DNA of 64,000 nt, taken from Heterocephalus glaber. Taxonomy: Eukaryota; Chordata; Mammalia; Rodentia; Bathyergidae. Shown here piece by piece: positions 25,976-63,973 of the stretch; within the stretch, counting starts at the first letter, position 1, and every line of letters starts with the position of its first letter. The DNA lies in NCBI RefSeq assembly GCF_000247695.1, contig NW_004624804.1, forward strand, positions 10,663,491 to 10,727,490, given 5' to 3'. The translations under genes were made by a program, and so were the position numbers. Under the pieces are notes generated by a model. That model saw nothing but the letters and a program-made list of their open reading frames with translations. It did not search any database and was not told the origin of the DNA.

Positions 25976-27124
25976 TCACAGCAGGTGTCAGGAAAGCTGA
26001 TGGTCAGTGCTAGGGCTCAGGACAGTTGTGGCTGGTTTTGGAGACCCCAGGCTGAGTTTCAACCTATAGTGAGGCAAGGACAGAAGGAACATCACAGTTT
26101 TGCTCCCCAGGATCCACTGATACTTAGAAACTAGCTTAGTACCTGTAGGCCCCTTCACTTGAGGGATCTCCCTTCGTGGTGGGGATGGGGGGGGGTGTCC
26201 TAAGGCCCAGACAGATGAAATTAGGGCTTAGATTCTGGGTCAAGAGACAGGGTTAAGGTGTGCAGTTGGGAACTCACTCTGATGTTCTCGGCTCTCCCTT
26301 CATGCTGAGCCCATGCAATAGCTCATCACTGCTCAGGACTCAAGCCATTTACTCAGATGACAGGCACAGGCTGAACACTGGTGAGACTATATAGCTAGGT
26401 GGGACTGAAAACCACCTGGAGGTAGGGACAGGAATCCGTGCATCCAGTAGCCCCCCGACTCTCCTGTCATCACCCCAGACCCCAGTCCATCGAAGTTTAC
26501 AGCAATTTAGGGGCAAGGATGACAAAAATGGTTAAGAGAGGTCAAGAGCCAAGTCTAGAATCCTAGCTGTTGAAGAAAGGAAGGTGCATCTAAATGTCAT
26601 AGACTGTCCTCCTCTTCATACCTACAGACTGTCTCCCCTACGCCCCCAAAGGACCCTACCACAGGTCTTCCCTAATAGGTCTCGAGCCCCTGACTTAAAT
26701 ACAGTGGGCCCTCAAGTTAGACCGGCCTGACATACGAACAACTTGGGTTAATTAGGTTAATGAAAAATTCATCTGCCTCTTGTTATTTACAGTGTATACC
26801 CAGGTAAACATACAGATTTCAGCTGTATTGACTTAGAACCAACTTGAGTTACAACTAGCCCTCAGGAACTGATTGAGTTGGTAAGTCAAGGGTCCACTGT
26901 ATTTCCTCAGACTTCCACCTTCAGAAATCCAGGACAGTCCTCTGCCCAGTCCACCCAGAGTATGGAAGCCAAACCCTGGCAACTAGCACCAGCAGTGGCC
27001 CAGCCTCCCCACCTGCTGTTGTGCCGATTTCGGTGAAGATCTCAGGCCCACAGTTAATGACTGGGCCAAAGCCACCAGGCAGCACAAGGAAGTCGGCCAA
27101 AGCCTCTAACTGTCCCCCAGAGCA
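25976..27124 (-). pseudogene. STRC: STRC (stereocilin) 3'-end relic: four decayed terminal exons
   Basis: Stereocilin forms horizontal top connectors of outer-hair-cell stereocilia; the intact protein is about 1,800 aa. Only its last four exons are recognisable. (1) 27,124-27,013: in frame, [20 protein letters not shown], proper AG and GT borders. (2) 26,562-26,501: GILDLAL then a shortened middle, then VILAPKLL, corresponding to the GIPDLAL...VIPPPKFA exon. (3) about 26,390-26,278: SPEQ, two consecutive TGA codons where the gene has RR, then AIAWAQHEG. (4) 26,063-25,976: AWGLQ..., then TGA replacing a Trp codon, then LTISF and a 1-nt deletion before the old terminator. Position, order, orientation and convergence on CKMT1 match the STRC locus. 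The roughly 25 upstream exons were not found anywhere before CATSPER2. A MITE sits between exons 1 and 2 of the relic. It could be a duplicate copy rather than the sole locus. Confidence 0.88.
26702..26899. mobile_element. Tigger-like MITE (TcMar DNA transposon relic)
   Basis: About 198 bp with terminal inverted repeats (cagtgggccctcaagtta at the left, complement of taagtcaagggtccactg at the right) bounded by TA on both sides, the target expected for Tc1/mariner-type elements. Non-coding; lies within an intron of the STRC relic. Confidence 0.7.
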
Positions 27125-28682
27125 CTGAAAACAGGTTTCCCAGGAAGAGAGTTGCTTGGCTATGAAAGAGTAGGAAGGAAGGGAGAATTCCCTTTGGTGA
27201 CGGGCTGAGGTCATGAGACTAGAGAAGAGATAACCAAAGTGCTTCCTCCCTCCATGGGACAACTTCAAGATCCTGACTTCCCAGAGAGCCCTCAGCACCA
27301 CCGCACTGTCCCTCTACAGGGGACCTCAACTCCTAACTGCTGCCATGCTGTAGCTCCTCTGGTCACAGCCCACAGAGCACACAGCCCAGGACTGTCAGGT
27401 GAATGAAGCCCAGGTGGTTCACATACCAACCACTCTGCCCTCAAAAAGTGAAGACCACAACCTGGAGCTAGGGAGGGGTGAGAGGCAGGGGCAGAGGATA
27501 AGGGGAGAAGTCATGGGGAATTAATGGGTGGGGCAGTGACCAGGGAGTGGTAGGTAGTAGTGGATTCTATTCTTAAGATCAGAAGATACAATAGCCCTAG
27601 AGAAAGTCAAAGACACCCCCATTCCCTGAGAGAAAAAGAGGATAGAAAAAGAAGAGGGCTCAGAGGAAAATGGCAGGAGAATATTACTGTTTGTGGTTCA
27701 GGGACTCAGCGAATAAAGCAGTAGTGACCCAAGGTCACTAGCATGAGTTACCAAGAAGATAGAAAGCGTGGGCAGGGAAGGTCTTCAGAAAGAGTCCTTG
27801 GGCCTTGGATAAGCTGGAAGATTGGGTCTAGGACAGATGTTTGGGGAGTAGCCGAGAGGGAGGAGAACAATGGTACCTAGACAGAGCTCCAGCCCACTTC
27901 TGCCCCAAGGTACCCAGCACCCACCCCCATCCCTCCTGGGTCTGAGATCCCCGTAACCATGTCACTGCTCTCCTACAGGCATTTACTCTCTTTTTATGTT
28001 CTTTACTTCACTCTGGGGATCAAGGAAATAGCCTCAGTATGTAGAGTGAATACTGGGCATCCAGCTTGCTCTATTTCATCCTACATCCATAACTGTGGTT
28101 TCCTAAATGACAGGAGAAGATAATGGGCTGGGAAGCTAAGAGAACTTTAAGGAAAAAGACACAGTAAAAGTGGGGACTCAGGGGTCCTGGAGACATGAAG
28201 TATATGGAATGGGCTGCCACTGATGATGGTGGTTAAGATGCTCGGTATAGGATAAGTTAGAATCTAAAGTTCCCAAAGGTCCATACCCAAGAACAGGCTC
28301 CTGAAACAGCAGCCATCCCGCCTCTGTGGCAAAGGTCTCTCCTAGGAAGGAGCCCTACAGCTCTTTGTACCAGCTCCACAACCAACATAATGCATGGACA
28401 GTCTGTCCATTAAAGGCTCCTATTCCAGCAGCTGGACAACAGGGGCACTCAGTTAAAACTGAGCCAAGTGGAGAAGGGACCCCGGGACCCCACATGCCCC
28501 AGACAGGCTGTAACATAAGACCAAGTCCTATGACCCTGGACTGGAACTGATATTAAATAAACAGTCCTGAGCTAATTATCACTATTTTCTTGAAGGGCGA
28601 GAACAAAAAGAGTGACATATTTCAAGTCTTCCTGAAAAGAAATAATCCTACCTGATCTAATGGGCTCAAAAACCCCAATACT
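27125..28682. other. Unassigned non-repetitive stretch upstream of STRC relic
   Basis: STRC upstream exons would be expected here on the minus strand. No clear SINE or LTR is seen in most of it and no stereocilin-like peptide could be recognised. It may contain exons decayed beyond eye recognition. Confidence 0.4.
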
Positions 28683-29322
28683 CATATTATAGACAGTTAA
28701 GTTAGAAATTAGTAGGCAGTCAGAGTGGTTCAGGCCCCTGAGGAAGTCAGCGCAGAAGATAAGACACATCAAAATTGTGATTGGAGGCAAATTTTAAAGA
28801 GAGCCAGGCCTCAAGGTGGAGGCCTGATGGCCAGGCCTGCAGGCCTCCCTGGAGATAAAGAGCAGCTTGAGCTTACACTGTAACCAGCGCTGCCTGGTCC
28901 AGGGGCCAGAGAGTACACTGGACTTACAGATGGGTGACCAGGACATCCTGGTCTCTAACCCTATTCCTTTCTAGGAGTCCCTTTGTTCTTTCTACAGTAG
29001 AAGTTATAGATAAGCTAAGATTAATGCTGCAGGCCATACACCCTTGCTGCATGCCTTGCTTCCCTATTAGATCAATATTAACTAAGCAACTGTACTTGTA
29101 ATCCTATAGGTAGTTTGACCCTTAGCTACCCAAGTTGTGATCTTGCTATATAAAATACCCTTGAACAAAGAGCCTCGACAGCCACTCACTTTCGGGATCC
29201 CTTCTGTCGCTCAGGAGATTTCTCTTAATAAACCTTTCCTGCTCTTAACCTCTTTTGTCCTCAAGTCCATTCTTCAGTATCCAGAGACATGAATGCAGCA
29301 CAGCTGATATCTAACAGGGTGG
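28683..29322 (+). repeat. Solo retroviral-type LTR, copy 1
   Basis: LTR-like unit with a TATA box (tatataaaat near 29,148) and an AATAAA signal near 29,230, sharing its whole layout with copies at 32,600-33,240, 34,520-34,830 and 60,965-61,570. No internal coding region adjoins it, so it is a solo LTR. Exact ends are uncertain. Confidence 0.65.
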
Positions 29323-29832
29323 GAGTAACTCCTCACAACACTAAGTGTTATTAAAATTTTCTTATCCCTCTTTCACAAATGAGGAACTTGGGTTTTCTGA
29401 TGCACAGTCCAGTATCTTTCACCTCATCCAGGCCATTGGGATTCTAAATTACCTCAGAAATTTTGTGTTGGCTGGAGGTGAGGAACAAGATGGTGGCGTC
29501 AGAGTGACAGGGCAACGGGCCATCCTAGCTCTCTCAGCGCCCATATCCAGCCGGCAAACAAACAACCTGACTGGGCAGCGGTGGTCGTCAGTCGGGCTGC
29601 CTTGGCAGACTCTGCTGTAAAGTGAGAAGACCTCATTCCAGGTCCTGAGCCTCCTTCGGCTGTGCTCAGGGGACACCACAGAGGACCCAGCTGGGCCCGA
29701 ACTGCAGCTGCCTCTCAGGCCACCTACGACGGCTCCTCTGGGGGCATTTACCAGGTGTTCAACATCACCCACGGGGAGCAAGTGGCCGTGAAGCTTGCCT
29801 CTCGAGCACCAGACACCCCTGTTGTGAACTCT

Positions 29833-29915
29833 TTTTTTTTGGTACCGGTGATCGAACTCGGGTCCTTGTGCTTGTGCAGCAGGCGGCGGCGAAACCACTG
29901 AGCTAAATCCTCAGC
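29833..29915 (-). repeat. ID-type SINE inside CSNK1A1 pseudogene
   Basis: Reverse full-length copy flanked by the duplication cctgttgtgaactct on both sides, splitting the kinase-homologous text. Confidence 0.93.
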
Positions 29916-30076
29916 CCTGTTGTGAACTCTGAGATCCAAGATGCAGCTGGCATCTCCTGCATTGGGTGGTGTGGTCTGGAGAAAGACTGTAACATGCTGG
30001 TCATGGAACTTCTGGCACCCAGTATTGAAGACCTTTTCAGTTTCTACCCAAGAAGATTCACAATGAAAACTGTATT

Positions 30077-30229
30077 ATTTTTTTTTTTTTTGAGACAGGG
30101 CCTCGCTTTGTAGCTCAGGCTAACCTTGAACTCACTATGTAACCCAGGCTGGCCTTGAACTCACAGAGATCCTCCTGCCTCAACCTACCGAGTACTGGGA
30201 TTATGGACATGCCCCACCACGCCTGGCAG
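30077..30229 (-). repeat. B1-type SINE inside CSNK1A1 pseudogene
   Basis: Reverse copy inserted after RRFTMKTV; kinase homology resumes directly after it. Confidence 0.93.
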
Positions 30230-31035
30230 AAAAGTATTTGTGTTAGCTGACCAGATGATCAGTAGATTCCAAAATGTGCATATGAAGAATTTCATACCCA
30301 GAGACATTAACCAAAACAACTTCCTAATGAGTATTGGGTTTTGCTGTAATAAGTTATTCCTCACCAATTTGGGTTTAGCCAAAAAGTACAGACAACAGGA
30401 CAAGGCAATACATACCACACAGAGGAAGTAAGAACCTCACTGGCACTGCCCAATGATCTAGCATCAGTGTACATCTTGATATTGAGCAGAGTCACCAAGA
30501 TGACATGGAATCATTAGAATATGTTTTTATGTATTTTAATAGAACCAGCCTGCCATGGCAAGAACCAAAGGCTGCAACAAAACAGCAAAAATATGAAAAG
30601 ATCAGTGAAGAGAAAGATGTCCATTCCTGTTGAAGTTTCGTATGTGTTCCCTACAGAATTTTCCAAGCACTTGAACTATCGCTGTGAGCTCCACTTTGAG
30701 GACGCCCCAGATATCCTGTCTCTGAGGCAGCTACTCTGCATCATTTTCAAGACCCTGACCCACCAATCTGACTACACATTTGACTGGACACAGCTAAAGC
30801 AGAAAGCAGCACAGTGAGCAGCCTCTTCCAGGGTGCAGCAAGTCCAAACCCCCACCAGCAAGCAAACTGACAAAACCCGAAAGGAACACAAAAGGCTTCT
30901 AAGCATGAATCAAGGAACAGAAGAAGCAGAGCAGATGATGGGAGCAGCATTGCTTCCCCCCAAACCTAGAAATTTTAGTTCAGATCTATTGATTGTGGAC
31001 AACTATTTACTTGGTGTAAAAAACTTAATTTCAGA

Positions 31036-31190
31036 CCAGGAGTGGTGGCACACACCTGTAGTCCCAGCACTGGGGAGGCTAAGGCAGGAGGATCACTGCA
31101 AGTCTGACCCCAGGCTGGGCAACATATAATGATTTCAAGGCCCACCTGAACTGCATAGTGAGATACTGTCAAAAAACAACAATAACAATA
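31036..31190 (+). repeat. B1-type SINE
   Basis: Forward copy in the 3' UTR-like part of the CSNK1A1 pseudogene. Confidence 0.92.
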
Positions 31191-31436
31191 ACAAAATTTT
31201 AGAATAAATTGGCTTTGGGCAGCATTGGTGGTGCTATAGTCTGAGTCATAGCTGGCATAATGTTAAATATTAACTGAGGTAGTGAAACTTGATGTCCAGG
31301 TTATTAATGCATGTTTTCAAGTGGAAAAGTTAAGTAAATGGTTGACATGCATCCAAATTGGTAAAGAAATTCTGCATATGCCAATTGTTGCTTAAAACCT
31401 TTTATTTTGGGGTATACAGCTTTGATATCTCATTTT

Positions 31437-31598
31437 ATTTATTTCTTTGTTTGTTAAGACAAACTCCCACTATGTATTCCAGACTGGTCTTTATCTCACT
31501 ATGCAGGCCAGGCTGTCCTCAAATCAAGGTGATCCTCTTGCCTCAGCCTCCTGACTATTGGGACCACAGGCGTGTGCCACCACGCCTAGCTAGATCTC
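31437..31598 (-). repeat. B1-type SINE
   Basis: Reverse copy; the flanking 'atctcatttta' text is repeated on both sides, consistent with a target duplication. Confidence 0.9.
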
Positions 31599-31832
31599 AT
31601 TTTAGAAGAATGGCATGAACAGTCTTCAGTCACAGTTGTGATGGTCCTAAGTGCTCATAATTGTATTAAAGACAGAATTCTTCTAAAGGCAGTTTTTGCC
31701 TCTATAGCAAGGCTAGAGCAATTAAAAAGTCAAAAGCAAAGAGGAAGAAATTAGGTCTTAGGTAGCATGATTAACATAAGAACCCCACACTTCCTCTTAA
31801 GGAAGTGTGTCCTTAAGTCTAAAATAACTTTC

Positions 31833-31945
31833 AGAGCTGAGGATGTAGCTCAGTGGCACAGCGCCTACACGGCAAGCACGAGGTCCTGGGTCCAATCCCC
31901 AGTACAAAAAACCAAAACCAAAAACAAAAACAAAACTACCTTTCC
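31833..31945 (+). repeat. ID-type SINE
   Basis: Forward, diverged subtype ('gctgaggatgtagctcagtgg') with a long A-rich (aaaac)n tail. Confidence 0.88.
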
Positions 31946-32394
31946 ATAAGCCCCCACCCATACTCAAGAACAGGAAAAAGTCCTGGCCAGAAAAAAGTCC
32001 AAGGTTGGGATGGAAGGCAGCCAGGGAGCCAGTCAGATTCCAGAGGCCTCCGTGAACAGGAGCCTGATAAAAGGAGGTATGGACCAGAAATCTGCCAGTA
32101 TTTCACTTTGGAATACTCCCTACTTGTCCAGAGTAACTGTCTGTCATCTCTCTTCCCCCTTTCCCCACCTTCAAATAAATTGTCTTCTTTTATTTAGAAA
32201 AAAAATTATTTAAATGGTTGGCTTTTGTTTGCAAGCCAGCTGATATGATAGTAACCAAGGATTCTGGTGTCTGAGCCTATGAAAAACTCTGCCTGGTTAA
32301 CTATCCTAGAAATAGCAGCACCCAAAGGGAAACTTAAGAAAAACTCAGTGGCTAGTGGATTATTCTTAGGACTGCATTAAATCTATAATGTTCT

Positions 32395-32525
32395 TTTTGT
32401 TTGTTTGGTTTGGTTTTGGAGACAGGGTCTCACCGTGTAGTTTGTGCTGGCCTTGGATTCCCTGTGGAGCCCAGGCTGGCCTCAAACTTGCAGTGATGCT
32501 CTGGCATCGACCTAAGTGCTGGGAT
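32395..32525 (-). repeat. B1-type SINE
   Basis: Reverse copy preceded by (gttt)n-type tail sequence. Confidence 0.85.
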
Positions 32526-32599
32526 TGATACAGGACCTCCAAATGATATAGGGGAAATAATATAACTCCCAACCTGCTAGATATCCAATATGCTGACTT

Positions 32600-33240
32600 T
32601 GTGTTCCCCAAATTGAATAATGAATTCTGACGAACAGAGTTAAGTTGGAAATTTTTGAGAGAGACAGCTCCTGAGACAGGAGAGGACCTGGAAAATGAGT
32701 CGCTACAGATTGGTACCGGGGATCGAACTCAGGACCTTGCACTTTCGAGGAAGGTGTTGGAACCACTGAGCTAAATCCCTGGTCCTCGGACTCCACTTTA
32801 TAGTGGAAGCATAATAGAGCAAAATCAAGGTGGGTACAACATAGGACAAAACCATGATCAACCGATAAGATTACAAGCATAGCAGTTTAGGTAATATTGA
32901 TCCAATGGGGAAGCAGGTCACATAGCAAGGGTCCATGGAAAGAAAAAGGACGTCTTTTGGAAGAGATGAATCAGGAGGTCCTGGTCCCACCCAGGTAACT
33001 GATGCCTCTCTAGACTTCACTGGTCCAGGCAATACCAACTATAGTATATTCTTTATCCCTAGGGGATGCATGTAGGCCTGGTCATTCCATCTTTATCTTG
33101 AGGCCTGGCCTTGAATGCACCTCCAACTGCAGTAGTAATGTGTTCTTATCTTCCACACTACTTCCAGGGACCAGCCCTGTTTGTTTGCCTATTATACTTC
33201 TACCTAATTTACCTGTCTATAATAGGATTATAGGTGTATG
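32600..33240 (-). repeat. Solo retroviral-type LTR, copy 2 (reverse)
   Basis: Reverse complement of the family seen at 28,683-29,322: shared blocks include 'taatattgatccaatgggg' and 'ttatcttgaggcctggcc'. An ID SINE interrupts it at 32,708-32,790. No internal genes. Confidence 0.6.
32708..32790 (-). repeat. ID-type SINE
   Basis: Reverse copy nested in the reverse LTR. Confidence 0.92.
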
Positions 33241-33298
33241 CTAATACCCCTGGCTCCCATACACATCTTGATTAATCTTTATTATCATAATGTTCTTG

Positions 33299-33390
33299 AT
33301 TTTTTTTTTTTTTTGGTACTGGGGATTGAACTCAGGACCTTCCGCTTTCAAGGCAGGCAGTGGAACCACTGAGCTAAATCCCTGGCCCCA
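33299..33390 (-). repeat. ID-type SINE
   Basis: Reverse copy with a T14 tail; 'ttcttgat' is repeated on both flanks. Confidence 0.93.
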
Positions 33391-33644
33391 TTCTTGATAT
33401 TTTTTAGAAAGTATATTTGTTAAGGAAAAATTAGTTAACATCTTACAACTGAACACTTATGTATGTTACTTAGATAAATGTAATCACTATAAACATCTGT
33501 ATGATCTGAGATTTTATTTTTATTTTGAAATGGTCCCTTTTTTGTTTACATATTCATTAAAAACTAAAAACTTTCTGTGAAAAAAATGAGATGTTTTAAA
33601 GAACAAAACGCCTTGCTGAGTTACTATGAAATAAAAATCTCAAT

Positions 33645-33715
33645 TGGGGGGGGGGGCAATTTTTTTGTGTGTGTGAGGCAGGCAGCAGAACCACTGAGCT
33701 AAATCCCTAACCCTC
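33645..33715 (-). repeat. ID-type SINE, internally deleted
   Basis: A G10 run and T-rich tail lead into the ID head 'gaaccactgagctaaatccc'; the middle is missing. Confidence 0.7.
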
Positions 33716-34417
33716 AATTTTCTGATACACTAAAAAATATCTCAGAGAAGTGAGATATTTCAATGGGTTAGAATGGCATTAGAAAAACAAAGCCTTTCTG
33801 CCCACAAATCAAAAGTGGCATGTAATCTCTACAGGGTTGTCAATTCTGGAATTGGGTCAAGTTGTACAAAACCCAAACTCTGTGTAAAGGCCTATAAAAG
33901 TTAAGTCTGGAGTCAACTGCATTTACCATCATGCCATGCCCAGGAAGACCATAACCCCAGCGTCCTTCTACTCTGACTTACAGTTCAGATGGCAATGGGG
34001 TGGGGTAAAAATGTGACAAGAAGCACATAAATGAAATAAGAATGAACTCCTAGACTCTGGGCTGGAGAAGCCTTAGATCCCTCCCTACAGCCCATACATT
34101 AATCCCTACAACATCCCTGCCATGGGGCCATCTAGTTTAGGCTTGGATGCTCCAGTGATCAGGAGCTCACCTTCTCCATTTTCTTTATATTATGCAAAAA
34201 TCTGATTTTAACTCATTAATCCTGGTCATGCCCAGTGGAACCATTCAGAAATATGCACATATACTACCTACTTGATAGCCCATGGGAATTTGAATGCATT
34301 TATCACTTTTTCTTCATAATTTTCTTTCTATTCACTCTTCTGAACACACTGAGAACCTTGTGCTCTGAGCAGACTGTAGTCCTCCAGGACAGAATTGACT
34401 GGACCTGTTGCCTTCCT

Positions 34418-34505
34418 CATTTTTTTTTTTTTGGTACCGGGGATCAAACTCCAGACCTTGCGCTTGTGAGGCAGGTGGCGGCACCACTGAGCTAAATCCC
34501 TGGCC
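34418..34505 (-). repeat. ID-type SINE
   Basis: Reverse full-length copy flanked by 'ccttcctcattttt' on both sides. Confidence 0.94.
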
Positions 34506-34519
34506 TAGCCTTCCTCATT

Positions 34520-34830: not shown

Positions 34831-34849
34831 CATGTAGGTTTGGGAGCTA

Positions 34850-34893
34850 CATCTACCGGGGATGGAACTCGGGACCTTGTGCTTGTGAGGCAG
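34850..34893 (-). repeat. ID-type SINE fragment
   Basis: Only the central block 'accggggatggaactcggga' to 'gaggca' remains. Confidence 0.7.
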
Positions 34894-37030: not shown

Positions 37031-37079
37031 GGAAAAAAAAGGAAAGTGGAGGGAAAATCATCCAAAGGAAAACCTGAAG

Positions 37080-48900: not shown

Positions 48901-48903
48901 TTG

Positions 48904-52139: not shown

Positions 52140-52618
52140 ACTTTTGAACTTTGCCTGTTTAACTATACTAGGATCAGCCTCCTCCAGAACTCCTTTTCCT
52201 ACACAGCTGTGTCACAGTGTGAGATTTGGGAGGAAAAGGTGAGGCAGTAAAAACCTCTGGTTAGAAGTGAGGAGGGACAAACACAAAGGATGGGGAAAAG
52301 GTCCAGTCTGTCCTAATTGATGAAAGGAAGAAAAACAAGAAGGGAATCAGTCTGATAAAGTATCCTTAGTTGTCCCAAGCAGGCTTTTTTGGGAAAATGT
52401 GCTACTCAGAGGAGTCTACTCAGTTTTCATTGCAGAAACCTAAGTGTTATCTCATACTAGACTAGACCTCAAGCTTCAGGGCAGAGACTAGATCTTGTGC
52501 CTAAAACTATTACAAACACAGTGTTAAATAATTTGTTAAGTAATAAATTGAGCCTACTCCACATATCTGTGGCCCTAGACCTAAAATGTTTGCTTCAGAT
52601 TAGGGACAGCTCTTCTTC
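52140..52618. other. Non-repetitive stretch without gene
   Basis: No SINE, LTR or coding pattern recognised. Confidence 0.4.
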
Positions 52619-52633
52619 ATAAAAGAACTTTGA

Positions 52634-52662
52634 GTGCTTGCTTTGGCAGCACATATACTAAA
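52634..52662 (+). pseudogene. 3'-truncated U6 snRNA retropseudogene with perfect duplication
   Basis: 29 nt match the very 5' end of U6 snRNA (gtgcttgctttggcagcaca, then tatactaaa) with two C-to-T changes. An identical 15-bp duplication, ataaaagaactttga, flanks it at 52,619-52,633 and 52,663-52,677. There is no A tail. It is a 'tailless' truncated insertion, not a transcribable U6 gene. Confidence 0.88.
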
Positions 52663-52811
52663 ATAAAAGAACTTTGATTAACAATTGTTGAAAGAATGGC
52701 AGAAATAGAACCTTACAGTAGTAATTACTGCAAACAAGATCACTGATGAAAGCTAAAATTAGTGGGCAAAACTTTAAGGAGAAACGTGATACTTATATAA
52801 CTTCAAAGTAT

Positions 52812-52935
52812 CTTCAGCTGGGCACAGTGGAGAACGCCTGTTATACCAGCACTAGGGAGGCTGAGACCAGAGGATCACCAGAGTTCAAGGATAGCCTGGA
52901 CTACATAGTGAGACCCAGTCTCAAACAACAAAACA
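52812..52935 (+). repeat. B1-type SINE
   Basis: Forward copy with small deletions. Confidence 0.88.
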
Positions 52936-52971
52936 AAAGTATGACCCTCCCCAAATATTTAATTATCTTGA

Positions 52972-53057
52972 TTTTTTTTTTTTGGTACCAGGCATCGAAC
53001 TCAGGACCTTGTGTGTGTGAGGCAGGCGGTGGCACCACTGAGCTAAATCCTTAGCCC
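52972..53057 (-). repeat. ID-type SINE
   Basis: Reverse copy with a T12 tail. Confidence 0.93.
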
Positions 53058-53094
53058 ATATTTATTAATTATGAAGGGAAAATAGTTAACTTCT

Positions 53095-53560
53095 CATGAG
53101 AGAAGCCTAGCAGACATCATCCTAAGGGATCAAGGTTAACATCACTACTAACGAGCCGCAGCACAGTACAACGCCCTGTGTGATGTGCTGAGAGGGGCTG
53201 CATCCCAGTGGTCATTCTTCTAAAACATCAGTATCATCACAGAAAACATCTGATGAACCCAAATTGAGGCACAGTCTCCAAAACACCAGACTAGAAGCCT
53301 TCCAGTGCACCAAGTGCATAAAAAACAAGGAAAGAGAAAGGCAACTGTACAACTAGAGGAGACTAAGGAGACACTGCAACTAAATACAGTTTAGTCTGGA
53401 CTGGATCCTAGAACAAAACAAGGACATATGGTTTGTTGGGTAGCATTTTACAGTTTTAATTTCTTCATTTTGACCCTTATAATAGAGAAAGCTGGATGAC
53501 AGGCATATGGGAACCATCTCTGCAACTATTCTATAAGTCCAAAAGTGTTTTTAAATAAAT
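53095..53560 (+). repeat. Old L1 3' UTR fragment
   Basis: Motifs 'ctagaggagactaaggagac', 'ggactggatcctagaacaaa' and 'catatgggaaccatctctgc' in this order are typical of an ancient mammalian L1 3' end. Confidence 0.55.
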
Positions 53561-53624
53561 TTCTTTCCTTGTGGAACTGGGGATTGAACCTAGAGATCAC
53601 TAAGCTACATCCCCAGCACTTTTT

Positions 53625-53725
53625 ATTTTATTTTTTTGAAGCAGTCTTATTAAATTGTCCAGGCTGGTTTTAAACTTTCAATTCCCTTTCCTCTTGAGTA
53701 GCTGGACATACATCACCACATTTTT
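53625..53725 (-). repeat. B1-type SINE, diverged
   Basis: Reverse, decayed copy preceded by an ID-like tail at 53,570-53,622. Confidence 0.65.
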
Positions 53726-53764
53726 TATTTAACTGTAAATAAAAAGTTTAAAATGCCTATTTCA

Positions 53765-54265
53765 ATTCGGGCATGATGGTACATACCTGTAGTCCCAGCA
53801 CTCTGGAGGCTGAGGCAGGAGGTTCACTCCAGTTCGAGGCCAGCCTGAACTACATAGCAAGACACATCTCAGAAAAAAAAAAAAAAGAAGAGAAGAAAAG
53901 AAAAGAAAAGAGCCAGAGGGCTGGGAATTTAGCTCAATGGTTCTGGTGCCTGCCTCACAAGCACAAGTTCCTGAGTTCGATCCCCAGTACCAAAAAAAAA
54001 AAAGAAAAAGAAAAGAGCCAGCAATGGTGGCACACAACTGTAGTCCCAGCACTCAGGAGGCTCAAGTGGGAGGATTACTGCAAGTTTGAGGCCAGCGTGG
54101 GCTAGTGAGTTCAAGGCCAGCCTGGGCTACATAGCAAGACCCTGTTAAAAAAACAAAAAAAGGGCCGGGAATTTAGCTCAGTGGTTCTGCCTCCTGCCTC
54201 ACAAGAGCAAGGTCTTGAATTCGGTACCAAACAAAAAAACAAAAAACAAAAACAAAAACAAAAAA
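53765..54265 (+). repeat. Alternating B1-ID-B1-ID SINE array
   Basis: Four forward SINEs end to end: B1 53,765-53,885, ID 53,918-54,004, B1 54,012-54,158, ID 54,163-54,265, each with its own A-rich tail. 'aaaagagccag' occurs around the first ID. Confidence 0.93.
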
Positions 54266-54603
54266 AATAATTTTTCAAAGGAAAACTGGATCCCTTTTTG
54301 GACATTGAGGGCCCGGTTGATGAGAAAAGAATCCTACAGATTATTTGAATTTTGAAACTGTTAGATGGCTGATAAATACTTTTATATTAAATTTGAACAC
54401 AGTGACAATATATAGATCAATTACAATAAGGAAAATTAATATAGATTTATAGTGAATCTATTTTAATATAAAAGTTAAACTTATGGTTAAAATGTCTCTT
54501 GTGACAGGCATGTAACATAGCTAGGGATTACAACCATCTTGCCTCTATCATTGGTTCAGGTTAGGCACTGACCTAACTTCCTGGGGCAGAGTGGTGCTTA
54601 GGT

Positions 54604-54605
<2 letters not shown>

Positions 54606-54645
<40 letters not shown>
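54606..54645. repeat. (GT)n microsatellite
   Basis: About 19 GT units. Confidence 0.96.
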
Positions 54646-54646
<1 letters not shown>

Positions 54647-54659
54647 TTCAACTTATATG

Positions 54660-55081
54660 CCGTGTTATGGTTTAGATCTAGACTGTCCCCCAAAGCCTCA
54701 TGAGTTCAGAGGGGGACTTTTGGAAGGTGACTGGATCATGAGTGAGGGCGCTGTGCTCATCAGTGGATTCATCTACTACTGATGAGTTTGTAGCAGAATG
54801 TGCTGTTAGGGGCAGGGCCTGATGGAGAAGGGGGGTTGGTGGGGGTGTGGCTTGGAAGGGGGCCTCCCCCTCTCCAGCTCCTCCTACTTCTCTCTGCTTC
54901 CTGGCTGCCAGGACAGGAGCAGCTTCCCTCAACTAAGCTCCTCTGTCATGCTGTTTCTGCTTTGGTGCCAGCTTACTATAGGTTGAAATTTCTAAAAACT
55001 ATGAGCCCAAATAAACTTTTCTCCTTTAAATTGTGGGTGTTGGGTATTTTGTCCCATCAAAGAGAAGGTGACTAAGACATA
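54660..55081 (+). repeat. MaLR-type LTR
   Basis: Starts near 'gttatggtttagatct' and ends 'ggtgactaagacata', with an AATAAA signal near 55,010; this layout is typical of ERVL-MaLR LTRs. Non-coding. Confidence 0.65.
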
Positions 55082-55500
55082 CAGTTAATGCCCAAATCAT
55101 AAATGTACTGTTCATTGGATTTTTATAGCTCTATATACCTCGCAGAACAAGTTATAGGACACTGCAGCATTCCAGGTTTCTCAGGCCTCCTCCCAGTCAG
55201 GGGCCTCACTCCAAGAATTTCCACTCTTCTGACCCAGAGCTCAGAAGTTTTGTTCAGTAACCAAGAAATGAGTCACAGTCTCTCTTCTCCTGGATGTGAG
55301 TAAATAGGCATCTAGGCCTAGGAGCTTTGAAAAATCATCTGGCTGCCTGAGTGAAACCAGCCTAGACATAATGTGGACACACAGAAGTAGAGACAAGAGA
55401 ACTGCAAAGAGACAAACCACAACTCTTACAACAGGAAATTTTATATTAAAGAGCCAATAGAGTAAGCTATTTCAGTTTTTAAATTTAATTTTTCTCAACT
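55082..55500. other. Non-repetitive stretch without gene
   Basis: Nothing recognised. Confidence 0.4.
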
Positions 55501-55506
55501 CACAAT

Positions 55507-55745
55507 TTTTTTTTTTTTTTTTTTTTACTGGTATCCGGGATTGAACTCAGGACCTTGCACTTTCGAGGCAGGTGCAGTGCCACTGAGCTAAATCCCTGGC
55601 CCGAGTAAACTTTTTTAAGTCTCAATTTTCTGATCTGTAAAAAATGGGAGAACACGGCCAGGGATTTAGCTCAGTGGTTTCGCCGCCTGCTGCGCAAGCG
55701 CAAGGACCCGAGTTCGATCCCCGGTACCAAAAAAAAAAAAAAAAG
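55507..55745. repeat. Two ID-type SINEs in opposite orientation
   Basis: Reverse copy 55,507-55,602 and forward near-consensus copy 55,654-55,745, the latter flanked by 'gggagaac'. Confidence 0.94.
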
Positions 55746-56027
55746 GGAGAACTATACCTCCCTATGTTGTTATTTTATGGAATATATATACATATTTCAT
55801 ATTCAGAGAGTATGTGAGTGTAGCCTGAATACATATGAACATATATGAAAATATCTTCATACATGTCAAGCACTCCAGGATAGAAAATTTGACCAATAAG
55901 AAAGTCTGAAGACTTCAGGCACCAATAATGAAATGGCCTCCCTTCCAGACAGTAAGTCACCAGTGACTACACATGCAACTGTCAGCTAGAGCCTCACCTG
56001 TCCATGATGTTCTAAAAGGTGTTCCTG

Positions 56028-56091
56028 CTGGGGTGTACCTCAGAGTACAGTGCTTGTTTAGTACCCATGAGACCCCGGGTTCAGTCCCTAG

Positions 56092-56139
<48 letters not shown>
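56028..56139 (+). repeat. Old tRNA-derived SINE with (CA)n tail
   Basis: A diverged tRNA-like head ('ctggggtgtacctcagagta', 'gggttcagtccctagc') followed by about 22 CA units at 56,095-56,139. Confidence 0.75.
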
Positions 56140-56140
<1 letters not shown>

Positions 56141-56607
56141 GTTTCTGTAGAGCACTTACTGCTTTTAACATTCCCCTGACCAATGGCAAAGAAATGGAAT
56201 CAAGAAAGGAATCGTCTTCTGGCCTCAGAGATCAGGATAAGCTGTGTCCCACTGAAGTTCATGCTGCACATGAGAAGCAGCCTTAGCAGAGCAGACCACG
56301 GGAATGACACTTCTCAGTCGGTCACACTGCCGCCTCTGAGGACCTCCTTCTCCCCAGAGGGGCCTGTAGAGACTGCATCAGAGAGGAAAAAAAGTGAAAT
56401 TAGGACTTTTATTTGGAAGTAGAGGCTGCAAGACAGATGAACTAAAATAATAAAATAAAATAAAAAGCACTTAGGTGCTATAAAGAGGGTGGAAAGCCAA
56501 GGACCTCAGGCCCCACTGGTACTAGAACAAATTTTTTGCCTGACCTTAGGCCTTTCAGTATCCCCTATGTTCGAGAGACAATTAATTAACTTACTCAACC
56601 ACAGTAT

Positions 56608-56689
56608 TTTTTTTCCAGGACCAGGGATTGAACTCAGGACCTTGTGCTTGCCAGTCAGGCACAACACCACTGAGCTAAATCCCTGGCCT
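56608..56689 (-). repeat. ID-type SINE
   Basis: Reverse copy; 'ccacagtattt' repeats on both flanks. Confidence 0.92.
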
Positions 56690-56876
56690 TTGGCCACAGT
56701 ATTTATTAGCAGTGTTTATTAGACATCGATATTTTGAATTTTCTAACTATTCCTTCATTATCTTGCTGAGCCCAAGGATCTTGAAGCCATCCATTGTGGG
56801 CTTTATCTGTCTTCAAAGTTCATCAGAACCTGTACTGTAGAGAAATGGACTGTGAAGCTAGAAAGCTGAGGATATA

Positions 56877-56957
56877 TTTTTTTTGATACCGGGAATCGAA
56901 CTCAGGATCTTCCGCTTGTGAGGCAGGCGGTGGAACCACTGAGCTAAATCCGTGGCC
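56877..56957 (-). repeat. ID-type SINE
   Basis: Reverse copy; 'agctgaggatat' repeats on both flanks. Confidence 0.93.
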
Positions 56958-57029
56958 AGCTGAGGATATTTTGAACATATACATGTCTGGTAAAGACCTT
57001 TCTTTTCTGAGTTCTAGATTCCCACACCT

Positions 57030-57182
57030 TTTTTTTTTTTTTTTTGAGACGATGCTTCACTTTTTAGTTCAAGCTGGCCTGGAACTCACTCTGGAGCCCA
57101 GGCTGGCCTCAAACTTGCTGAAATCCTCCTGCCTCAGCCTCTCAAGTGCTGGGATTATTGACATGTGCCACTGTGCCCAGCA
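57030..57182 (-). repeat. B1-type SINE
   Basis: Reverse full-length copy with a T17 tail. Confidence 0.92.
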
Positions 57183-57465
57183 TTAGTTTTTGTTTTTGAG
57201 ACAGGGGACTAATTTTTATTCTAAATTAAGCCATGTCAGTCTGTGTTCTCTTTGGGCACAAACAAGTTAGTCAAATTCAAGAAGCCATTTCCCCTTCTCC
57301 TCCCTTCTCTGTACTCCCAGGAATGAATGGGAAGGTGGGACTAAGAATGACAGGAAAGAGCAAGAGTAACTTCAGGCAACATTATGGTGTGGGCAAAGCC
57401 TTTCTTTGACATCCTGCCCCAAATCTCATGTTCCAGTGTTATTTATTGCCCTCCTGTGCCCACCT

Positions 57466-57466
57466 T

Positions 57467-57509
<43 letters not shown>
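57466..57509. repeat. (TC)n microsatellite
   Basis: About 21 TC units. Confidence 0.95.
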
Positions 57510-57510
<1 letters not shown>

Positions 57511-57671
57511 GGTACCTCTTCCTAATTTCTTATTTTCACACAGAGTTGATTTCAACATGGTATGAGGAAGAAAACTCAGACAACACTAATCCATATTAAA
57601 CTGTTTAAAAGAGAAGAGCTTGCCCATAAACCCAGGACCTTTGTACTGAGCTACAACCAGCCCTTTTTAAA

Positions 57672-57800
57672 TTTATTTTTTAAATCTTGGGACAGGGTCT
57701 CATAAGTCATTAAATTGCCCAGGCTGAGCTTGACCTGTGACCCTCCTGCCTTGGCCTCCCAGAGTACTGAGGTCACAGGTGTGCACCACCATATCCAGGT
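57672..57800 (-). repeat. B1-type SINE, diverged
   Basis: Reverse copy ('gggacagggtctcataagtc' to 'tgcaccaccatatccagg'). Confidence 0.8.
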
Positions 57801-58744
57801 AAAAGTATATTCTGAGCAGTTAGTGCTCAGCTTACATCAGACTCTGTTATTTAAATCACACATTTTCTCTCTGCCTAGACTGACACTAGAAAGGGCTCAC
57901 AGGAAGTGAAACCTTTGATTCAGAAACGTCTGGGGGCTGTGGCAGTGTGCACTTGAGGGCTTTCTGCTCCCTGCCCAATGTCCACAGCTCTCTAAAGGGA
58001 GCCTGAGCCCTGCTGCTCAGGTCTGAACTGTGACTTTCAGAGAGAAAGAGTGCACACAGACAGGAGAGGGCTGCCCACATCAGCAAGGGTCCACTTCATT
58101 CTAATTCCTAGCAACTGGAATTGCACACAAACTCTGAGACCTCGTAGGATCTGGGTGTCCCCTGCTGGAGAAGCAGAGTTTCTAGGTTTTCTCTAAGAGA
58201 AAAGTTAGGACACATGCCTAGAACTTGACACACCAAACCAAGAAACTACCTTGTCTGTGTGGGAGGCAGAGCTGAGAGGCTGAGGGGGCAGAACAGCGAA
58301 TTCTCCCCTTCTCCTCAGTTGTGTATGCTACTCCCACATACTAACTCTTGGTTCCGTGACTGCCTGAAAGCCAGACCTGCCAACTACTGCAACTCCTTCC
58401 ACTTCCCTAGATTATACTGAAGCTTTTCCAGCAACTCAAAATATTGGAAGAGTGAATTTCTGGGCCAAACAATGACTTCACCCTGATCTGTTTCCATTAG
58501 CCCAAGTAGATTCTAGCATACAAGGGTCTCCCTGTCCGACTTCTTACATGTCTACATTTGCAGAGGCTGGAAAAAAGCTGAGAAATCCTACGGCATTTGT
58601 AGAAAGGTAGAGATGGAAGATGAAATGTGGAAATGGAGAAAGGGTATATCACCAGACTACTTTTCACAATGAGCAAAGAGAGTCACAGCTACCCTTATCC
58701 AAGGGGAAGCAGAAGTATAGGGAAATATTACTTATTCTAAATCT

Positions 58745-58828
58745 TTTCTGTGGTGCTGGGAATTGAACCCAGGGCCTCACACGTACTAGGCAAGTGTTCT
58801 ACCACTGAATTACATCCCCACCCACAAA
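58745..58828 (-). repeat. Older ID-type SINE subtype
   Basis: Reverse copy closer to the general rodent ID sequence ('gggcctcacacgtactaggc') than the local young subtype; lies in a CATSPER2 intron. Confidence 0.8.
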
Positions 58829-58934
58829 GGGAAAAGTAAGAAAGACAAAGTAATTGCTGCCAGAAAATCAAAATGGTAGAGAAAATTGGAGTGCAGATAT
58901 AGCAGGAGAGCTGCTCTTTTAAGATTGAGATTCT

Positions 58935-59058
58935 CAGCCAGGTGTGGTAATGCAAGCTTGCAATCCTTACCACTCAGGAAGCTGCGGCAGGAGGACTGGT
59001 GTGTGTCCAAGGTCAGCCTGGGCTACACATCAAGACCCCGTCTCAAAAAAAGAAAAAA
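58935..59058 (+). repeat. B1-type SINE
   Basis: Forward copy ending 46 bp from the CATSPER2 relic exon (c). Confidence 0.88.
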
Positions 59059-59524
59059 GACTAAGATTCTCATAGAGTCTGAATTCAAGTGGAAAAAACT
59101 CACCACTCGCCAATATAATCAGAATGTCCAGATTCTGAAGAGAAAGACGTAGAGGTAGAGGAGGTGAGGAGGAAATGGGAACAATTTTCTTTTTGTCAAA
59201 GACTCTTTTGCTGTTTTTGAAGACACTGACAGTTCCTTTTGAGCAGCACTGTGTTTAGACTCTTTTTCAGAAGCTTCTGCAAAGTCCAAAGATATCCATT
59301 GTGGATTAGCTTCTCCAAAAAGGAAAGGAAAAATTTTATTGTTTCTAATACATTTCCAAGACTGACTAGTTCATTCATTATTTTAGTCCTGGCCAAATTA
59401 GTACCAAACTCTAAGTTTAAGCATTTCCAACCTCATCCCTTATGTCATTCTTAATTATTTTCTTGCTTCCATAACCAGTCCATCAAGAAGTACTATTGGC
59501 TCCGCCTTCAAAATACATCTTTTC

Positions 59525-59705
59525 AGGCTTGGCAGCCTGCTGTAATCCTAGCACTTGGGAGGCTGAGGCAGGAGTAAAGTAGGATAGAAGAAATAAAAAG
59601 TAGGTAGAAAAGAGACAAAGATTCTAAAATTAAGAACTGTACACAGTGCCTGCCTGGCAAGTGGGAGGTCCTGAGTTCAGTCCCCATGTAAAAAAAAAAA
59701 AAGAA
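59525..59705 (+). repeat. B1 and ID SINE fragments
   Basis: A 5' B1 piece at 59,525-59,575 and the 3' half of an ID with A tail at 59,648-59,702. Confidence 0.7.
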
Positions 59706-60004
59706 CTGCAGCTTCTAGACAATTCTTTTTCAAGAAACTCACTCTTCTTCATCAGAAGATCATCACCTCAAAGACACCCCTTAAGTGTACCCCACTCTGG
59801 CTTATAACAGTCTCACTTCTCTGAGCACCTACACTCCAGTCTTCAGTGTGTCCTACAATCTCTGCCTAATAGACTCTACTCATGCCTCTTTTTGATGCAT
59901 GCTGAAAATTCTTTTTTTGCAATAACAGCCAATGAATCTCCAAACTTATTTTAGAAGGGTAGGACAGGTTCCTTATTGCAGCCTTGGGAAACTCTCACAC
60001 TCAG

Positions 60005-60110
60005 CCCCAGTAACAGGAGGATCGCCATGAGTTCAAGGCCAGCCTGGACAATATAGCAAGACCGTGTTTCAAAAAAACAAAAACAAAACAAAACAAAACA
60101 ATACATCTTT
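60005..60110 (+). repeat. B1-type SINE 3' half
   Basis: 'gagttcaaggccagcctgga' then an (aaaac)n tail. Confidence 0.85.
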
Positions 60111-60221
60111 TCTCTGTAGTTCACTGGTATTCTACTGGTCTCTGAGTTTTCATAATCTCTTCTGGACTAAAGCATTGCTCCTCACAGATCTAATACTTCC
60201 CTTGTTCTTTCTTTCTTTCCT

Positions 60222-60355
60222 TTTTTTTTTTTTTAAGACAGGGTCTTTCTAGGTAGCCCAAACTGGCCACAAATTCATTATGTAGCCCAGACTGGCCTCT
60301 TGATCCTCCTGCCTCAGTCTCCTGAGATCACGGGCTTGTGCCACCATGCCTGGCC
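60222..60355 (-). repeat. B1-type SINE
   Basis: Reverse copy with a T-rich tail. Confidence 0.9.
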
Positions 60356-60521
60356 TTCCCTCATTCTTTTATAGTCTGTCCTCAACACAGAAACCAGAGT
60401 AATTCTTTTGTTTTGTTTTGTTTTTTAAGACACTGTGGATTGAACCCATTACTTTACATTGAGCTACATCGCAAGCCCCCCCCCACCCCTTTCTTCTTCT
60501 TCTTGTTGTTGTTTTTTTTTT

Positions 60522-60712
60522 GGTACCAGGGATCAAACTCAGGATCTTGTGCTTTCGAGGCAGGTGGGTGCACCACTGAGCTAAGTCCCTGGCTCTTTTT
60601 TGTTGTTGTTGTTTTTTTTTGACAAGGTCTTGCTGGGCTGGAACTTGCAATCCTCCTATCTCAGATTCCAAGGGTGCTACAGTTACAAGTGAGTGCCACC
60701 AAGCCCAGTTCA
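60522..60712 (-). repeat. ID-type SINE followed by B1-type SINE
   Basis: Reverse ID 60,522-60,595 and reverse, shortened B1 60,615-60,712; a decayed ID-like piece precedes at 60,430-60,480. Confidence 0.88.
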
Positions 60713-60964
60713 TAGTAATCTTTTATTTTTTATTTTATTTTTTTTCATAATAATCCTTTTAAATGTAAGTCATTTCCTGTCACCCCGTTGGCTGTGCTTC
60801 CCATTTCCCTCTGGGTAAAAGCCTAAGTCCCAGCTCTGCCAAATCAGGTCTCCACCCTGCAATCTCTCTGGCCTCATCTCGTGCCACTATTCCCCTGCTC
60901 TCTCTGCTCCAGGCACCACGGTCTCCCTGCTATTTCTCAAAGACACCAGGCATGCTTCCAATTT

Positions 60965-61570
60965 AGCATTACAGATAGCTAAATTAGTTAGAAATTATTA
61001 TATAGTCATCAAGGGATTGGGCTTTCAAGGGAATCAGCACAAAAAAATAAAGACATCAGAACTGTGGCTGGAGACGAATCTGAAGAAGCCCAACCATCAA
61101 TATGGAGATGCAGTGGCCAGGCCTGCAGGGCTCCCTAAGAAATAAACATTGACTTGAGATTATACTGTGATTAGCACCACCTGGTCTGGTGAACCCAGCC
61201 AGGCATCAAATGCCAAGGTGGGTGACCAGAACATCTGGCATCATCCCTTTCCAAAAATGCCTTTGTTCTTCCCATGAACCCTCACTACAAGACTCATTTC
61301 CCTATTGGATCAATATTAGCTAAGCAGCTAAACTTGTAATTCTATAGGTTGATTGTAGTTTGATCCGTGTTGTATTCATATTTGCCATATAAATTACCCT
61401 TGACAAAGGAGCTTGGTGGCCACCCACTCTGGACCCCGCCTGGAAATCCAGGAGCTACTCTTTTTCTCCTTATTTCCAATAAAACTCTCTTAACTTCCTC
61501 CTTTGATTTACAACTTCATTCCTCAATGTTGTGAGACCATGAACTTGCCACATCTGACATTTAACAGGTC
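60965..61570 (+). repeat. Solo retroviral-type LTR, copy 4
   Basis: Most complete copy of the family shared with 28,683-29,322: 'ggatcaatattagctaagca', a TATA-like catataaatta, and an AATAAA at about 61,480. It lies inside a CATSPER2 intron. No internal genes. Confidence 0.7.
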
Positions 61571-61734
61571 AGGCATTAAATTTTTCCTATATCACTGGGT
61601 CTTCCTTCTGCCTCTCATATTTTCCATAGATATCCACATAGAAGTCCCCTCCCCAACTTCAACTCCTTGTTCACATTACTTTTTCAATGAGGACATCCTG
61701 ATTACCCTGTTTCTTTTTCTTTTCTTTTCTTTTC

Positions 61735-61855
61735 TTTTTGGAGACAGGGTCTCATTATGCAGTCCAGGCTGGCCTGGAACTCACCACTATGTAGCGCAGG
61801 CTGGCCTCACCTTCTGGAGTGCTGGAATTACAGATGTTTGTCAACACACTGGCAC
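61735..61855 (-). repeat. B1-type SINE
   Basis: Reverse copy with a small central deletion and a (ttttc)n tail. Confidence 0.88.
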
Positions 61856-62071
61856 CCTATTCCAACTATAACCTATAACCCATATGTAATAACTCATATG
61901 CAATCTCCTTTCACCTATTCTAATTTTAATTTTTCCATAATATTTATCATATATTAGGACACTATTTACCTGTTCATTGCTTATCGTCTCTACCCCTGCT
62001 AGTGTGCAAGCTCTCTTATTCACTCTAAACACTCAGGGCCTAGAACAGTATTCATTTCCTTGAAGGTATTT

Positions 62072-62515
62072 GTATGAGTTTCCTGCAGATGCCATAACAA
62101 ATTACCACAAACTGGGAGTTTAAGAAAAAAACAGAAGTCTGAAATCATAGTGTTGGCAGGGCCATGCCACCTCTGGAGGCTGTAGGAGAAAATGTCCTTG
62201 GCTTCTTGGACTTTCTGGCTGCTGCCCAGCATTTCTCAGCTCCCCTTGGCCTCTGGCTGCCTTGCTGCAGTCTCTACCTGTCTTCACATCACCTTTGCCT
62301 ATCCTCTGTGTCTGTGTCTTCTCTTTTGTCTTCATGATCCTCCTGGTCATGGAATTTAGGGCCCACCTGGATAATCGAGGATGATCACATTTCAAAGTTT
62401 TTAACTTAATCATATCTGCAAAGACCCTTTTCCCAAATAAGGACACATTCTCAAGGTTTTAGAGATTAAGGACATGGACAGATAATTTTAGGTGCTACCT
62501 CTGAACTGACTACAA
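62072..62515 (-). repeat. MLT1-type MaLR LTR
   Basis: Reverse copy of an ancient MaLR LTR: 'ccataacaaattaccacaaa' at the low end and 'gcaaagacccttttcccaaa' inside are diagnostic-looking. Non-coding. Confidence 0.75.
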
Positions 62516-62548
62516 CAAATAGTTATTACTATTATTTGTTTTGGGGGG

Positions 62549-62745
62549 TTTTTTGGTACCGGGGATCGAACTTGGCATCTTGCGCTTGGAAGGCAGGTGC
62601 CGAAACCACTGAGCTAAATCCCTGGCCCTATAATAATAATAATAATAATTATTATTATTATTATTATTACTGGTACCAGGAATCAAACTCAGGGCCTCAC
62701 ACTTGCCAGGTAGGCACTGCACGGCAGAGATACATCCCTAGCAAC
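62549..62745 (-). repeat. Two ID-type SINEs around an (ATA/TTA)n repeat
   Basis: Young reverse copy 62,549-62,629, a self-complementary (taa)n(tta)n tract 62,630-62,668, then an older reverse copy 62,669-62,745. Confidence 0.9.
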
Positions 62746-62911
62746 AAATAGTCATTGAATAGATGGATGTGGATTCTCTCTCAAAGCCAATCTTCATCAT
62801 TGTTGCTCTACCCTCTCCTCCTGTATGTGCATCACATAGACACTGCTAACCTGGCTTTGATTTCACTACAGCTTGACCTCAGTGTTTCATAGGACAGGCT
62901 TTGTCACCTGC

Positions 62912-62913
<2 letters not shown>

Positions 62914-62948
<35 letters not shown>
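62914..62948. repeat. (AC)n microsatellite
   Basis: About 17 AC units. Confidence 0.95.
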
Positions 62949-62950
<2 letters not shown>

Positions 62951-63200
62951 CCGCCAAACAAGAATAACAAAAACCAGAAACAATAAAAGAATGAAGAAAG
63001 TCATACTAAGCTAAAGTACAACAAGAAAAAAAAAAGAATTCAGATCAGCAAATGAAGTAAACTGAATGGGGAGAACAGATTATAGGGAAGGGGTGAAGAA
63101 GAATGGAGCAGCCCCTCACAGTGGATAAAGAATCAGGCAATGTATGAGAGCCAGGGAAGTCTTAAGTCTGTGGGCAAGTCTGTCACAAGGGAAAAAGTAG

Positions 63201-63280
63201 GGCAAAGGATTTAGCTCAGGGGTGCCGTGCCTTCCTCACAAGTGCAAGGTCCTGAGTTTGATCCCCAGTACTGGAAATAA
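63201..63280 (+). repeat. ID-type SINE
   Basis: Forward copy; 'gggaaaaagtaggg' repeats on both flanks. Confidence 0.93.
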
Positions 63281-63665
63281 ATAAACAAGGGAAAAAGTAG
63301 GGTCAAGGCCAAGGGTGGAAAATAGAATGAGGTCAGAAAACACTTGGAAAACAAAGTTTAGTTTGAAAAGCAGGGAGCAGACCTCCTGAGGATCTGCAGC
63401 TTGAGGACATCAGCCTTGTGCTGAGATGCCAGATGTGCCGTCTCCTTGTCCAGCTCATCCCAGATGTCCCAGAAGTTATTAGCTGGATGGGGAGAAATCA
63501 AGTGACATAACCATTCCGGGATGGGAGCCTGCCTGCTACACTAGTTTCTCTCTGCCCACAATGCACTAGTCCCAGCTGTCAGACTCATTCTTCCTGGCCA
63601 CTCCTCCCTCTAAGTTTCCCCAATTTCTGATCACACATCGTGCTTACTAAGATAATGGAGCCCAG

Positions 63666-63770
63666 GGCCGGGGATTTAGCTAGGTAGCACTGAGCCTGCC
63701 TCTCAAGCACAAGGTCCTGAGTTCGATCCCCTGTACTGGGGGGGAAAAAAAAAGAAAGAAAAGAAAAAAT
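63666..63770 (+). repeat. ID-type SINE inserted in CATSPER2 coding exon
   Basis: Forward copy with a perfect 15-bp duplication, gataatggagcccag, at 63,651-63,665 and 63,771-63,785. The duplicated bases encode the LLGSII segment of CATSPER2 on the other strand. Confidence 0.96.
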
Positions 63771-63973
63771 GATAATGGAGCCCAGCAGGACCCAGAGGAT
63801 GACATGGGTGCTGCTGATGACAGAGCTGACTTCTGGCCCCTTCCAGATGTCCTGGAGCAACATGTTCTAGTGATCCATCGTGAAGAGATGAAGACACTCA
63901 TGAGGGAACTTGGCAGGTCCCTGCACAGCAAGGTGTATGGAGAGATGGGAGCAGAGATCAAAGCCTCTCAAAA

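Follow-up and report, generated by a model that had tools for sequence, protein, structure and literature searches.

The stretch analysed here, referred to hereafter as the window, is 64,000 nucleotides of contig NW_004624804.1 of the naked mole-rat (Heterocephalus glaber) and contains, in order, PPIP5K1, CKMT1, STRC and CATSPER2. In the 2.594 Gb assembly this contig, called C75 below, is 12.00 Mb long. An earlier note on the same DNA had read the first two genes as intact and the adjacent pair as both dead, and those calls, together with the gene identities and the PPIP5K1-CKMT1-STRC-CATSPER2 synteny, are supported by our analysis. The splice model for PPIP5K1 joins 23 exons into 984 codons with no stops and with GT-AG at 22 of 22 junctions. 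An alignment with PPIP5K1 of Heterocephalus glaber (P0222) has 985 columns, of which 978 are identical; the seven that differ lie at two exon junctions, one of which reflects a fault in the splice model and the other an isoform difference. The next-best match was Fukomys (98%). The earlier note had placed the DNA in a castorimorph rodent, which this match contradicts, the naked mole-rat being a hystricomorph. CKMT1, the gene for ubiquitous mitochondrial creatine kinase, reads through 417 residues to its stop. The coordinates of all features are collected in Table 1.

The window STRC is a remnant. With intact mammalian stereocilins as tblastn queries, recognisable protein was limited to approximately the last quarter, in pieces from 28.44 to 25.99 kb on the minus strand, and these contain 11 in-frame stops in 231 aligned codons. 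There was no credible match within the window to residues before approximately 1303 (Castor numbering). At the DNA level, homology to the living gene on contig C109 (see below) extends to 34.42 kb, and the DNA from 28.7 to 33.7 kb is material inserted between STRC remnants. A Pfam scan of the stop-masked frames of 25.5-35.5 kb returned no families. In the STRC protein tree the window copy fell near the rodent base with weak support, on a long branch and in no starred set. The inserted material also carries a fragment of casein kinase I alpha, most likely a CSNK1A1 retropseudogene.

The window CATSPER2 was read by tblastn and frame reading in its 3' half, the 5' exons being expected beyond the right end of the window. 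The frame changes at 63887 and there are two in-frame stops, both TAG, at 63869-63867 and 58515-58513. In addition, one exon is interrupted by 105 bases resembling a short interspersed element (SINE), flanked by 15-base target copies at 63785-63771 and 63665-63651; the corresponding exon of the living CATSPER2 on contig C2 is uninterrupted at this site. The most 3' exon piece is a weak tblastn match (E 4.7) but is supported by the DNA match of its surroundings. In a tree built without the C2 gene the dead copy grouped with lagomorphs in a starred set. This grouping was rejected as an artefact, as it was gone once the C2 copy was added, when the window and C2 copies paired with support of 100/99.

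Table 1. Features of the window (contig C75) and of related copies on contigs C2 and C84 of the naked mole-rat assembly.
Feature	Position	Strand	Basis or remark
PPIP5K1, N-terminal part, intact	2541..13320	-	splice model; runs off left end of window
CKMT1, intact	20953..25589	+	9 exons, GT-AG, terminal stop; creatine kinase U-type matches
Dead STRC, 3' part including introns	25914..28682	-	colinear with living STRC on C109
Casein kinase I alpha fragment	30228-30431	+	
Farthest DNA-level trace of dead STRC	33734..34420	-	blastn 70% over 731 bases to C109 2906153-2906851, an intron of the C109 gene
Stretch 3' of CATSPER2 coding region	52216..57177	.	blastn 70-79% to C2; order and orientation as beside living CATSPER2
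Dead CATSPER2, 3' half	56806..63979	-	colinear with C2 CATSPER2 including introns
Dead CATSPER2 exon pieces	63937-63771, 63477-63382, 59310-59185, 58536-58387, 56835-56806	-	
SINE-like insert in CATSPER2 exon	63666..63770	-	
Open CATSPER2	C2:9710765-9720456	-	loci L019, L021, L022, L023, L025, L029
Dead CKMT1	C2:9724255-9730166	+	
STRC scrap	C2:9731534-9732248	-	
Truncated STRC and dead CKMT1 unit	C84:7471052-7474315		carries TGA in STRC; K80 0.063-0.166 to C109
Further broken CATSPER2 copy (L020)	C75:8476149-8479475		repeats inserted

The earlier note had proposed a search of the assembly for other STRC and CATSPER2 copies, and such copies were found. The readable sequence of the genome was searched twice with stereocilin queries and once with CATSPER2 of Castor. 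The best stereocilin matches were on C109; C84 gave partial matches, and C75 the remnant in the window. On C109, where STRC was read in its 3' part, 15 consecutive 3' exons are intact; all 14 junctions between them are GT-AG, and together they encode 644 residues up to the stop codon. When compared with the database stereocilin of the naked mole-rat (P0079, 1670 residues), all 622 readable residues are identical and 22 are unreadable. P0079 lacks about 150 residues of the Fukomys stereocilin and has 60 unrelated residues in their place. Outside this odd segment, P0079 changes only 9 of the 745 columns that are invariant in 31 other placentals, and STRC is therefore conserved in the naked mole-rat; with the segment counted the figure is 23 of 767. 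The corresponding counts are 6/817 for Fukomys, 4/815 for Octodon and 16/827 for Castor. The C84 STRC, which shares distinctive residues of the database entry P0100 ('putative stereocilin-like'), is a younger partial copy of the STRC-plus-CKMT1 unit of C109 and the source of that entry. In the porcupine Erethizon dorsatum, a 'LOW QUALITY' stereocilin-like entry (P0094) reads as normal stereocilin and then as unrelated sequence near the C-terminal end, which reflects either a prediction fault or a damaged copy.

All 42 first-look candidates of the CATSPER2 search were scored, yielding 13 matches. Those on C2 cover residues 47-518, the longest exon coverage of the search. The lesser matches on C75 (in the window and at 8.48 Mb), C109 and C84 are fragments or broken, and a 26% match at 2.20 Mb on C2 is probably another channel gene. 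Eleven exons of the C2 gene were joined; all 10 junctions are GT-AG, and the resulting 532 codons contain no stop. Frame reading past this 11-exon model indicates one more short exon, which carries the stop codon. The copy at 8.48 Mb (L020) lies 2.2 Mb from the window and is probably processed, with several exons joined without introns.

The alignments are not confined to exons. The window CKMT1 and dead STRC (21210-28682) align to C109 through introns, as do the end of CKMT1-STRC (21913-26544) and CATSPER2 with its downstream DNA (52216-63979) to C2. The sequences in the window and on C109, C2 and C84 are old copies of one CKMT1-STRC-CATSPER2 block. C2 carries, in this order, CATSPER2, a dead CKMT1 and a scrap of STRC; on C109, read from the opposite strand, the arrangement is the same, but there CATSPER2 and CKMT1 are dead and STRC is living. 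Decay has been reciprocal. The window retains CKMT1, C109 retains STRC and C2 retains CATSPER2, and the other copies read are broken or fragmentary; CKMT1 carries stops on C109, C84 and C2, leaving the window CKMT1 as the sole intact copy among the four read. The window block combines homology through introns and intergenic DNA with disabling lesions, as expected of a non-processed pseudogene. A processed pseudogene was rejected because introns are present and the exon pieces are spread over kilobases in parental order, and a unitary pseudogene, i.e. a true loss, is disfavoured by the open STRC on C109 and CATSPER2 on C2 of the same assembly.

These observations suggest the following history. 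In the lineage of the naked mole-rat the CKMT1-STRC-CATSPER2 block would have been duplicated. One or more of these duplications was probably in tandem, because a junction of the human type, with CATSPER2 of one unit beside CKMT1 and then STRC of the next, survives on C2. Copies would then have dispersed to at least four places (C75 with the window, C2, C109 and C84), and reciprocal loss afterwards would have left each gene surviving in one copy among those read. We infer both the order of these events and the great age of the copies. The window would accordingly belong to an old family of segmental duplications, of which it is the side next to PPIP5K1, and its STRC and CATSPER2 would be redundant dead copies rather than a loss of function, a reading to which we assign a probability of roughly 0.87. 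The earlier note had named a dead duplicate with functional copies outside the window as its main alternative, and, judged from the reading frames on C109 and C2, this appears to be the better account. Its description of that duplicate as 'tandem, as in humans' agrees with the junction on C2 but not with the living copies, which are on three different contigs.

K80 between the window and the living copies is 0.21-0.32 in 8 of 10 stretches, and the remaining two, beside the right end, gave 0.157 and 0.114. At usual mammalian rates, 0.21-0.32 with both sides partly neutral corresponds to tens of millions of years. There are seven STRC columns at which at least four of five hystricognaths share a state that most of 27 other placentals do not have. 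The window STRC has the old state at four of these, differs from both states at two and agrees with the hystricognaths at one, and that one is ambiguous, as its state is common to 11 of the 27 other placentals. Taken with K80 and the STRC tree, this favours, but does not prove, a split before crown hystricognaths. Along 61870-63979 of the window, identity to C2 climbs toward the right end (K80 0.211, 0.157, 0.114). The pattern suggests a later gene-conversion tract near this end, as if continuing beyond it.

The C2 CATSPER2 is open but unusually divergent. It averages 58.1% identity to 27 other mammals, while for eight of these, taken as a sample, mean identity to the others is 71.9-79.3%. It alters 49 of 189 columns that are invariant in the 27; when each of the 27 was left out in turn, the maximum was 8 of 201. 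In S4, two arginines found in 27/27 mammals are replaced by serine, a lysine (26/27) by glutamine and an arginine (23/27) by histidine. Two other basic S4 positions are preserved, and the mammalian charge pattern is not reproduced. In the pore motif TxDxW, the T, D and W are preserved as in 27/27, and the following tyrosine (27/27) is asparagine. Among 154 residues comparable between the window and C2 copies, 24 were changed in the window only and 14 in C2 only, which indicates that the C2 gene is constrained, but loosely. Another 25 are shared departures, so that much of the acceleration preceded the split of the two copies or was spread by conversion; 10 were changed differently and 81 were unchanged. 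Seven hystricomorph genera were present among 101 STRC matches and none among the best 120 of 304 CATSPER2 matches. This absence was rejected as a sign of CATSPER2 loss: at 603 bits, the C2 protein falls short of the cut of about 705 for the best 120. The pattern suggests, without demonstrating it, that CATSPER2 evolves fast across the hystricomorph clade.

The earlier note had proposed that loss of both genes is fixed in this wild lineage. The two window genes are plainly dead, and published phenotypes could be taken to agree: a review (PMC9277573, citing Pyott 2020) describes outer-hair-cell bundles that are missing or abnormally organised and no cochlear amplification in the naked mole-rat, and PMC3247228 describes degenerate sperm, 7% motile, exceptionally slow and without a fibrous sheath. 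However, the hearing physiology claim is disputed in PMC12189162, and the same assembly contains open, spliced copies of both genes, with P0079 as the database stereocilin. The earlier note had itself named intact STRC and CATSPER2 elsewhere in this genome as evidence that would overturn its claim, and at the level of sequence such evidence exists for both genes. Fixed loss is thus very improbable and the claim did not hold. Still less credible is that errors of assembly or sequencing produced the lesions, as the copies differ throughout, introns included, at the K80 values given above, and neither a SINE with its target-site duplication nor the missing 5' STRC is a product of error. The junction on C2 is of the tandem type, and the human locus is a tandem duplication; both would fit a working STRC and CATSPER2 in tandem just past the right end of the window, the genes on C109 and C2 being secondary. 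Yet the whole-genome searches for STRC and CATSPER2 gave no such neighbours in readable sequence, and the contigs given in the database for naked mole-rat STRC (7.06 Mb) and PPIP5K1 (12.06 Mb) are close in length to C109 (7.05 Mb) and C75 (12.00 Mb). We regard this arrangement as improbable.

Several points weigh against the interpretation of the window genes as redundant copies. The 5' part of STRC on C109 is taken from the database protein P0079, and the odd segment of P0079 may reflect an assembly gap or else true internal damage to the living STRC. That the C109 STRC and the C2 CATSPER2 are expressed and functional is what we infer from sequence. Finally, the unusual divergence of the C2 CATSPER2 could mean that this copy too is decaying. 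In that case it would be a further relic with its frame still open, and the working CATSPER2 would lie in unreadable sequence or be gone, as the altered invariant residues and the loss of two S4 arginines might suggest. Against this, the 532 codons are open with intact splice sites, and the window copy at a like divergence has several lesions. In a crude neutral simulation with 2000 runs per distance, the C2 frame escaped stops in 46 runs at d = 0.07, in 11 at 0.10 and in 7 at 0.13; these counts exclude indels, about 13 of which are expected for the frame under neutral drift, and they disfavour a relic. Exon coverage was longest on C2 among all candidates scored, the other matches being fragments or broken, and the missing hystricomorphs among the best 120 of 304 matches are expected if the annotated protein is that of C2. 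A relic on C2 is therefore unlikely, if the least unlikely of these alternatives, and redundancy of the dead window genes remains the reading that we prefer.

With STRC conserved, the window offers no explanation for the hair-bundle phenotype. For sperm, the divergent C2 CATSPER2 is a molecular candidate to set against the degenerate, slow sperm that have been published; the text of PMC3247228 mentions neither hyperactivation nor calcium. A ten-subunit comparison of CatSper proteins in a paper on CatSper evolution (PMC8147001) includes the naked mole rat among rodents, which is indirectly consistent with an annotated CATSPER2. Among the literature matches listed, none dealt with copies of STRC or CATSPER2 in the naked mole-rat, which is not proof of absence. 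We propose tentatively, and at somewhat less than even odds, that the STRC-CATSPER2 locus was split by reciprocal loss to three places, that the one open CATSPER2 left has lost much of its S4 charge and a quarter of the residues otherwise fixed in 27 mammals, and that CatSper in the naked mole-rat, perhaps hystricomorph-wide, would gate differently or barely work. More generally, the false lead of a combined STRC and CATSPER2 loss is removed and is replaced by a partition of linked genes among old duplicates. The locus is also an annotation trap, since automatic calls at the expected position in the synteny would score both genes as lost.

The naked mole-rat is a second lineage, besides human, with a duplication of the CKMT1-STRC-CATSPER2 block. 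The human locus at 15q15.3 is the tandem duplication CKMT1B-STRC-CATSPER2 / CKMT1A-STRCP1-CATSPER2P1, with both CKMT1 genes retained. As in human, the three genes were duplicated as a block, a dead STRC-CATSPER2 pair lies next to a living CKMT1, and there is a CATSPER2-CKMT1-STRC junction, in this case on C2. Four contigs, and at least four places, hold the naked mole-rat copies, which are far older and more decayed than the human ones; CKMT1 is dead in three of the four copies read, and the living STRC and CATSPER2 are in separate blocks. The joint involvement of the neighbours STRC and CATSPER2 resembles the deletion in deafness-infertility syndrome, as described in PMC8755823, but the naked mole-rat has readable copies of both genes elsewhere. 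As in reciprocal (divergent) loss of paralogues, each gene is retained in a different copy of the block; the difference is that three linked genes are split over three copies within one genome.

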